In this document: positions 11,420 to 14,857 of the stretch, piece by piece
How positions within the stretch are numbered: position 1 is the first letter of the stretch
Layout of the letters: each line of letters begins with the position of its first letter
Assembly: GCA_005805305.1 (NCBI GenBank)
Contig: SYMW01000252.1
Location: 1 to 41,470, forward strand
Reading direction: 5' to 3'
Source: Verrucomicrobiales bacterium
Lineage (GTDB): Bacteria; Verrucomicrobiota; Verrucomicrobiia; Limisphaerales; F1-80-MAGS106
Length of the DNA: 41,470 nt
Position numbers and translations under genes: made by a program
Notes under the pieces: generated by a model
The model's database searches: none
What the model was told of the DNA's origin: nothing
What the model saw: only the letters and a program-made list of their open reading frames with translations

Positions 11420-11940
11420 TCACTTGATGGGCGCCACATGGCCATCGCCGTACAGCACGTTCTTGGTCCCATTCGGGCTCCCAGGATGAAAATTTTCGTA
11501 GTCGTACATCAACCGGGCGATCGAAGCCGTCATCTCGAGCCCTGAGATCACGCCGGGCCGCTCGATGGGCTGGCCGTTCGCTTGATAGTTCCACTCATAA
11601 CTCGAACCTTCCTTCTTGAACCAATCGTAGCGGTCCTTGGGGCACTGGAAGACCGCAAGCACTCCACCCACGTTGTTGGACAACACATCGACGATGCGGG
11701 GCAGGACGTTGGTCGCTTCGATCGGGGTGGTCGGACGCCGCTCCGCATGGGGCAGCTTGCCTCCATTATCATCGGTGTAAATGGTGAGCGCGATCCCAAG
11801 CTGCTTGAGGTTGCTCAGGCATTTTGTGTCCTGGGCCTTTCCTTTGGCGCGGCTCAGAGCGGGCAGCAACAGCCCCGCGAGGATCCCAATGATGCCAATG
11901 ACCACCAAGAGCTCGATCAGAGTGAACCCGGGGGCGCGAC
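11420..11940 (-). pseudogene. Prepilin-like pseudopilin whose native 5' leader appears replaced by an inserted repeat element (ORF continues to 12244 through the element)
   Basis: [48 protein letters not shown] and C-terminal [10 protein letters not shown]. No start codon lies between the element boundary (about 11940) and the GFTLIEL site. Confidence 0.6.
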
Positions 11941-12242
11941 TTAGGGTCCGTGCAAAAATAACTTCCTGTTTTGCTGGCGGCCCAATGAGTCGCTGGCCAG
12001 GCGCGAATGACCCGCCTGCGCCCAAACCGCCTGCCGCGACATCCGCGGCGCAGGCAAGGGGCTCCGGCGAGGCAAGCGAGCATATCCGTAGATCTGTGAG
12101 GAATGAGCAACAACGCCAGCGATTCATTGGGCCCCAGCCCGGAGGGGCGGGGCGGGGCTTGGCCATCTGCGTCGTTGCTCGTCGGTTACAGCCCCATGAA
12201 GGGGACCGGCCTTCGCCAATTCGGCCATGGATTTGCGCGGAC
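11941..12242. repeat. Composite foldback element: outer arms 11946-11956/12232-12242 enclosing two head-to-head core hairpins (a, d)
   Basis: Outer GTCCGTGCAAA vs reverse complement GTCCGCGCAAA. Hairpin a arms GGCCCAATGAGTCGCTGG (11979-11996)/CCAGCGATTCATTGGGCC (12116-12133). Hairpin d arms 12159-12171/12214-12230 around the reversed core CGTTGCTCGTCGGTTACAGCCCCATGAAGGGG. Confidence 0.8.
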
Positions 12243-12250
12243 ATCGGGGC

Positions 12251-13332: not shown

Positions 13333-13447
13333 GGCCTAAGGGTCCATGCAAAAATAACTTCGGAGGGTATGCCCCTCATTCGTGCCTCGCCAAAATGTCA
13401 TGATTCCGCCAGCAAAGCCCGAATTTATTTTGCACGGACCCTAAGCC
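13333..13447. repeat. Foldback element with GGCYTAAGGGTCC terminal inverted repeats (copy e)
   Basis: GGCCTAAGGGTCCATGCAAAAATAACTTCGG at the left and CGAATTTATTTTGCACGGACCCTAAGCC at the right, nearly perfect inverted repeat. The same arm sequence occurs at 11941. Confidence 0.85.
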
Positions 13448-13541: not shown

Positions 13542-13820
13542 CTAGTGTGCCGTTCACGAATTTGGTGGGCATTTGTTGTGCCACAGCGAATCTCTGGCAA
13601 GGCGCGACGACGGAGCATATCCGGATATGGATCTGTGACCGAGGAGCAACGCAGCCAGAGGTTCACTGTGGCACAACCCGATGGGCGGCGCGTCTTTTTG
13701 ATTCAGACTTCGTTGTTCCCTCCTCACAGACCCACGAAGGGTATGTTCGTCGTTCTCGCCTAGTCTGAATCAAAAATCCATTGCCGCAAATGTCCACCCC
13801 ATTCGTGAACGGCACACTAG
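13542..13820. repeat. Composite foldback element: 33-bp outer inverted repeat enclosing two head-to-head core hairpins (b, c)
   Basis: Outer arms CTAGTGTGCCGTTCACGAATTTGGTGGGCATTT (13542-13574) and AAATGTCCACCCCATTCGTGAACGGCACACTAG (13788-13820), 30/33 complementary. Hairpin b arms 13575-13597/13655-13677. Hairpin c arms TTTTTGATTCAGACT 13695-13709/AGTCTGAATCAAAAA 13762-13776. Confidence 0.93.
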
Positions 13821-14857
13821 GGCGCCGGGGGGGCGGGCCTGGGACGCGCATGGCGGGAAGCGGAATTATCAGCCGCAAAGATGATCTCGTGGGTCCTCAA
13901 GGCATGCGCGAGACTCGTCAAAGGCATTTCCTCATTTCGCTGAATGGCTTGGAAAAACGCCAAAAACTGAGCTTCATACGGATGATCGGAAACATCCCCG
14001 GAATCGAGCAACTTCATGGAGAGTTCACTCCACCGGTTCTTGTCCAATCCGCCAAGCTGTGAGCTGTACAGTTTATTATCCAGCAGTGTGCCTTCGCTCC
14101 CAATGAGGTGCACGCGGAAATAATAAGGCTGCAGGCAATCGATGACCGACGCCACTTTGCCGACTCTTCCGTCCTTGAACTTCAATATGGACACGCTCGA
14201 TGTGGGATATTCGTAGGAAGCAAAATCCGCGTTTTGGGAGTGGGAAGAATAGCTGCTGACCGCCTCAACTTCATGTCCCATGCAGAGCAGGAGCGCGTCC
14301 ATCGCGTGGCATCCGGCGGATAGGAGGCTGCTGCCTCCGGCCTCGCGTTTGATGTTCCACCGATATTGCCCGTACCATGGGCCGATCCCGTGGTAATAAT
14401 CCACTTCTCCGTAGTGGATCTTGCCCAGCAAGCCGCGGTCAATGATTGCCTTGACCGTCTTGAATTGGCTGCTGAAGCGGCATTCGAAACAAACGCAAGT
14501 TCTTACTTTTGCGGCAGCCACCGCGTTTTTGATCTCCACGCAGTCTTCCCAGGTCAACGCCAGGGGTTTTTCGATGATCAAATGCTTCCCGGCCTTGGCG
14601 GCCGCGATGGCGTGCCGGGCATGTTCCTGGGGATAGCTGCAAATGGATATGACGTGGATCTCCGGGTCTGACAGCATCGCTTCGAGATGATGATAACAAG
14701 TAACATCGCAGCCGTGCCGCTTGCTGACTTCCGTGGAATCCAATGGGCGCGAGGAGAAAATCGCCCGCACCCGGGCGTTCGGAGTCGCATTGATGGCCGC
14801 GATGTGCGCGCCTGCGACCCATCCATAGCCAATAATCCCGACATTCAGCTTTTTCAT
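13817..14857 (-). CDS. Gfo/Idh/MocA family oxidoreductase
   Basis: MKKLNVGIIGYGWVAGAHIAAINATPNARVRAIFSS (NAD-binding), VISICSYPQEHARHAIAAAKAGKHLIIEKPLALT. Confidence 0.93.
   Translation of the reverse strand: MKKLNVGIIGYGWVAGAHIAAINATPNARVRAIFSSRPLDSTEVSKRHGCDVTCYHHLEAMLSDPEIHVISICSYPQEHARHAIAAAKAGKHLIIEKPLALTWEDCVEIKNAVAAAKVRTCVCFECRFSSQFKTVKAIIDRGLLGKIHYGEVDYYHGIGPWYGQYRWNIKREAGGSSLLSAGCHAMDALLLCMGHEVEAVSSYSSHSQNADFASYEYPTSSVSILKFKDGRVGKVASVIDCLQPYYFRVHLIGSEGTLLDNKLYSSQLGGLDKNRWSELSMKLLDSGDVSDHPYEAQFLAFFQAIQRNEEMPLTSLAHALRTHEIIFAADNSASRHARPRPAPPAP

Follow-up and report, generated by a model that had tools for sequence, protein, structure and literature searches.

A decayed MITE copy in a Verrucomicrobiales genome and the two-hairpin interior that it shares with elements carrying other ends

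Two loci in the window (the whole stretch of 41,470 nt that was analysed, from a Verrucomicrobiales genome) raise the question of how one arrangement of hairpins can be built from different stem sequences. The original prediction described the locus at 11941-12242 as an outer stem around two hairpins, a and d, with convergent cores, and noted the same layout at 13542-13820. We found that this likeness is not due to chance. Both are recovered by a search with a core pattern for which shuffled sequence predicts 0 matches. The covariance model R1, whose training set included the hairpins of both loci or close copies, matches 12059-12124 (E 2.5e-8), 13589-13663 (3e-24) and 13699-13772 (5e-23). What had been missed is that both loci are copies of multi-copy MITEs with different terminal inverted repeats (TIRs), that the layout is phylum-wide, and that the copy at 11941-12242 is truncated.

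Anatomy of the locus and the MITE-A family

The locus 11941-12242 is a damaged, decayed copy of a dispersed short mobile DNA element, the MITE-A family. Its features, and those of the two other elements in the window, are as follows.

11941-11943, no strand: TTA left flank, the family's TNA target-site triplet (identical triplets in 35 of the 42 copies with TNA on both sides, p=3.6e-7)
11944-11965, plus: MITE-A left terminal inverted repeat GGGTCCGTGCAAAAATAACTTC (TIR pattern found genome-wide; same kind of ends as ISAzo13-type IS)
11979-12133, plus: hairpin a, 18-19 bp stem around a sense core, split by a nested insert (inverted repeat I6; cmsearch 12059-12124)
about 12012-12076, plus: nested hairpin insert GCCTGCGCC/GGCGCAGGC, 65-66 nt, within hairpin a; missing from typical copies
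12078-12115, plus: core a, sense strand GAGCATATCCGTAGATCTGTGAGGAATGAGCAACAACG
12129-12153, plus: linker joining hairpins a and d, with a small CCC..GGG hairpin (placed alike in the folds of elements that have a dozen different terminal repeats)
12161-12226, minus: hairpin d, minus-strand core, damaged in this copy (cmsearch 16.1 bits, E 0.019)
12232-12242, minus: probable remnant of the right terminal inverted repeat, TTTGCGCGGAC (exact match to the GTCCGCGCAAA TIR variant, copy L009)
13337-13444, no strand: MITE-A deletion derivative of 102 nt (13340-13441) with both TIRs (matches at 13340-13357 and 13424-13441) and TAA on each side
13542-13820, no strand: intact MITE-B copy, 34-nt terminal repeat CTAGTGTGCCGTTCACGAATT..., same inner chassis
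13575-13677, plus: MITE-B hairpin a, sense core (R1 match 13589-13663)
13695-13776, minus: MITE-B hairpin d, minus-strand core (R1 match 13699-13772)

All strings named in the original prediction are present in the sequence, the left outer arm being shifted by one base. They were located exactly at 11946-11956 (GTCCGTGCAAA) and 12232-12242 (TTTGCGCGGAC) for the outer arms, at 11979-11996 (GGCCCAATGAGTCGCTGG) and 12116-12133 (CCAGCGATTCATTGGGCC) for the arms of hairpin a, and at 12014-12022 (GCCTGCGCC) and 12047-12055 (GGCGCAGGC) for the nested arms. The layout, the cores (a at 12078-12115, reversed d at 12170-12207) and hairpin a are real, and hairpin a is intact except for the insert of 65-66 nt. 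Hairpin d had been described as its counterpart but is damaged: it no longer has a closing arm, and little is left of the right terminal repeat, because likeness to the MITE-A family stops near 12225 and R1 gives just 16 bits (E 0.019). The outer arms exist, but the supposed outer stem is the terminal inverted repeat of the element. Since the closing arm and most of the right TIR are gone, the right arm, of just 11 nt (E 0.12), is at best, and probably, a remnant of that repeat. The flanks of the copy are unmatched (TTA on the left vs. ATC on the right), and it has no clean right end or target duplication. The nested hairpin lies where it was predicted; it proved to be an insert that eight further copies in this repeat family also have and that the common form of roughly 277 nt lacks, typical copies matching the query at 6-77 and then at 143-271. 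Rather than being peculiar to this locus, the insert marks a MITE-A subfamily. A prepilin-like ORF (11420-12244, minus strand) runs straight through the MITE copy, so that its native start has probably been displaced by the insertion.

MITE-A gave 74 BLAST matches in the 4.56 Mb genome from which the window comes, and the TIR GGGNCCGTGCAAAAATAA has 91 genome matches with at most 2 mismatches, compared with 2 for a reversed control. The typical end-to-end length of intact elements is 270 bp in the genome of the window and 273 bp in RA.bin74, a verrucomicrobial MAG; copy lengths range from 245 to 440 nt, and no transposase gene is carried. The family has the terminal inverted repeats (22-34 nt), the 3-bp TNA target duplications, the high and dispersed copy number without transposase and the related autonomous element, a matching ISAzo13-type IS, that characterize MITEs. 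No DNA match to MITE-A was found in the phage collection. A MAG labelled Akkermansia muciniphila (CAMAVD010000267/70; L117, L124) also contains MITE-A-like elements, although its label may be wrong. A solo MITE-A end (L059 2793-2830, G000:C2:20293) has become fused to an FG-GAP-type ORF within its N-terminal region; a near-duplicate of the gene lies beside it. Two ends lying 1.87 kb apart in RA.bin74 (L147) were considered as an IS and rejected, as they belong to two MITEs flanking a gene.

The ends of MITE-A match those of ISAzo13-type IS (PF07592) in the same genome and in relatives, and its TNA duplication matches that of ISAzo13-type elements in related genomes. In the related genome G043, an IS with ends of the MITE-A kind encodes a PF07592 transposase (E 5e-101) and is flanked by TAA; the same kind of ISAzo13-type IS with such ends is present in another relative, G128. 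In the genome of the window, about eleven left and eleven right ISAzo13-type IS ends were detected near contig edges. The right end reads VSNTQMRLLNLKTHSVLPVWNYTLSPDQNRN-stop, like the C-terminus of ISAzo13 in L164. The IS interior is not assembled in this genome, as expected for a repeat. The assembly (G000) breaks about 120-140 bp inside the high-copy ISAzo13-type IS at roughly twenty contig ends (C30, C71, C163, C238, C314, C319 and others), which explains part of its fragmentation.

MITE-A is an ISAzo13-related MITE. It resembles the ISAzo13 family (PF07592) in its terminal repeats and TNA target duplication but is without a transposase, and its interior shows no relationship to the IS ends that were examined. 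TIR and target-site duplication together indicate derivation from ISAzo13 for MITE-A, not for MITE-B. The only ends for which a complete IS came to light are those of the MITE-A kind. No transposase was identified for the other terminal repeats; a search directed at the GAGCCTGTCTGAAAATT ends returned only further MITEs or unrelated genes. The PF01609 transposases of the genome (an ISAs1-like gene and fragments) were rejected as partners, having no link to MITE ends.

A common interior between different ends

The interior consists of two convergent hairpins with tandem G·A mismatches at their centre and a small hairpin that connects them. The sense-strand hairpin reads stem, GAGGCGC-GA-N-GA-NN-GA-GCA-T-ACC, loop, GGT-C-TGT-GA-NN-GA-N-GA-GCAACGAA, stem. 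Where GA dinucleotides face each other, tandem G·A mismatches arise, and one and two Watson-Crick pairs space them into a ladder, the order of spacing (1-2 or 2-1) differing among families. Across classes the paired hairpins face each other 35-37 nt apart around the CCC..GGG mini-hairpin, and most predicted folds show a four-way junction, nearly fully paired and closed by the terminal repeat. With convergent cores, either strand has one sense core and no more, and the module would thus work whichever way round it is inserted.

The ends of MITE-B are unrelated to those of MITE-A, and its interior is the same. At least 13 full-length MITE-B copies with 88-96% identity were identified; flanks and ends read CTAGTGTGCCG. 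No DNA match to MITE-B was found in the plasmid collection. The stop codon of a putative oxidoreductase-like ORF, as judged from its translation (13817-14857, minus strand), falls within the terminal CTAG of MITE-B, so the insertion supplies the end of this gene.

R1 detected at least 100 copies in the genome of the window, where 150 of the 1534 candidates were scored. It matches 76 of 196 genomes of the order, in 53 of 107 genera, and 28 of 388 genomes sampled across the phylum, other classes included; the core sequence is conserved across classes. A copy is also present in a Planctomycetota MAG (L141). The two-hairpin elements span about 265-285 bp yet carry more than 10 different end sequences, including GAGCCTGTCTGAAAATT, GAAGCCATCTCATAAATAACC, GTGTAGTGTCTCACAAATAACTA, GTGGTCTGAGGCATAAATAC, ACACAGCGGCTTAAATAATT, GAGAGTGTTCAACAAGTCAG and GGCTTTGTAACAAAATAACC. 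Their flanks are mostly TNA; a small number, MITE-B among them, have CTAG. The genome of the window alone has no fewer than four or five end types (A, B, C210, C246/C100 and C185), and many single-core matches are without a clear outer repeat. A chassis of convergent hairpins and a linker hairpin sits between many terminal repeats across Verrucomicrobiota.

One contig of the same genome holds a chimera (G000:C18:4786-5236, L026) in which a MITE-B left half is joined to a MITE-A right half at the core. With a junction of this kind at the shared core, recombination there appears to be the simplest route by which one interior could gain different ends, and it may apply to the family as a whole. 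The copy on contig C160 contains a fragment of a third family. The C18 chimera adjoins an IS end.

Prokaryotic MITEs such as Correia/NEMIS, RUP, ERIC, Nezha and QMITE2 are described as short and non-coding, with TIRs and target duplications; they reach high copy numbers, and strong secondary structure is predicted for them (PMC10969869, PMC3733652). The elements studied here share all of these features; they differ in that one covarying interior is common to families with unrelated TIRs across a phylum. No such case was found in the parts of the reviews of prokaryotic MITEs that were consulted, and the literature searched holds no description of a MITE family with this interior. As far as that literature shows, what is new is an interior, conserved and covarying, that persists throughout a phylum longer than its ends do.

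Covariation and strand asymmetry of the hairpins

The original prediction of one layout with differing stems was to stand or fall with covariation above phylogenetic background, and such covariation is strong on both sets of homologues used, the tree-aware comparison included. In 18 diverse hairpins, 86% of cells pair vs. 65% in shuffled data, and the covariation score is 0.52 vs. 0.18 (0/500). For 116 matches the score is 0.626 vs. 0.176 (0/500). A tree of 113 hairpins served for a parsimony test, in which compensatory double changes were observed on a mean of 8.5 branches per structure pair; other column pairs on the same tree showed a mean of 0.2 and a maximum of 4, and 15 of the 24 structure pairs exceed all 2391 of these in branch co-changes. 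The alignment was fitted to the model, and since the stems aligned almost gap-free, bias from this source should be small. The evidence that the hairpins covary above phylogenetic background, as structured RNA or single-stranded DNA does, is overwhelming.

In the outer stem, G·U is commoner than A·C (86 vs. 18, p=4e-12), and 54 sequences favour G·U vs. 7 that favour A·C. The asymmetry is gone in core pairs other than the fixed G-U (22 vs. 19). Strand-blind change in double-stranded DNA would equalise G·U and A·C. The G·A ladder exists on the sense strand only. Both observations suggest that a single-stranded sense form of the hairpins is probably selected, and the G·U excess mildly favours RNA as that form.

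These data bear on a simpler explanation, in which the locus is an ordinary MITE with functionless hairpins whose palindromes are kept perfect by template switching. Template-switch correction of quasi-palindromes is established biology; it would yield paired stem changes, and the elements are indeed mobile and multi-copy. We consider this explanation unlikely, as the conserved central tandem G·A mismatches stay uncorrected, the outer-stem G·U count is far above that of A·C, which is unexpected from a strand-blind process, and the core sequence is conserved across classes.

The covariation and the G·U bias, in turn, suggest an RNA-like constraint, and would suit a cis- or trans-acting structured RNA that serves chiefly in host gene regulation, with dispersal as a secondary matter. 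This seems quite improbable for sequences present in tens to a hundred or more copies, in varied insertion contexts and with TIRs and target duplications. Moreover, matches occur in just part of the genomes of the order (76 of 196), and no Rfam family matches: with Rfam 15, no match above the gathering score was obtained in the window. A relaxed Rfam search gave only a weak mir-548 match on the small MITE (13336-13445), which was rejected as a look-alike arising by coincidence of the terminal-repeat sequence; human mir-548 derives from a mariner MITE with similar ends.

Movement of REP/BIME-like palindromes as single strands by a RAYT (Y1) transposase is very improbable indeed, as Y1 transposition is not known to make terminal repeats of the present kind (22-35 nt) with 3-bp target duplications, and the hairpins are about 75-105 nt long, not 20-40 nt, without a constant GTAG/CGTC tag (alignment A1). 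The elements nevertheless recall the REPs and BIMEs of the GTAG and CGTC superfamilies in being dispersed hairpins, often in opposed pairs, and paired convergent hairpins look like BIME dimers; in some species REPs lie within longer palindromes, and GTAG REPs have been reported in a verrucomicrobium (PMC3733652). The much longer hairpins, the TIRs with target duplications and the lack of a terminal tag set the present elements apart.

Maintenance and spread of the elements

The locus is most likely a decayed MITE with a phylum-wide conserved chassis, moved by transposases in trans, exchanging halves at its cores and keeping sense hairpins that are of use to it. Transposases recognising the respective ends would move the elements in trans, and copies with different ends would swap halves by recombination at the shared cores. 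The hairpins would be kept because their single-stranded sense form, RNA being likelier than single-stranded DNA, serves the element, possibly by binding a host or transposition factor or by making insertions tolerable. More broadly, and more tentatively, the elements could represent a phylum-wide IS satellite: a structured module with a functional single-stranded sense form that survives by taking up, time and again, ends that belong to different transposase families, by way of recombination at its conserved cores.

MITEs are usually viewed as degenerate derivatives of a single parent IS. Here it is the ends that vary and the interior that is kept, across many genera and several classes, with clear selection-like signatures in the structure. 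If confirmed, the family would provide a tractable example of an element that parasitises several transposases and, in the tandem G·A ladder, a conserved motif of nucleic acid. It also explains the unusual stem changes noted in the original prediction.

Three core hairpins with three different stems were observed within 1.5 kb in one genome (L174 in G031; 1352-1425, 1549-1624 and 2732-2803); they are apparently neighbouring insertions of different families.
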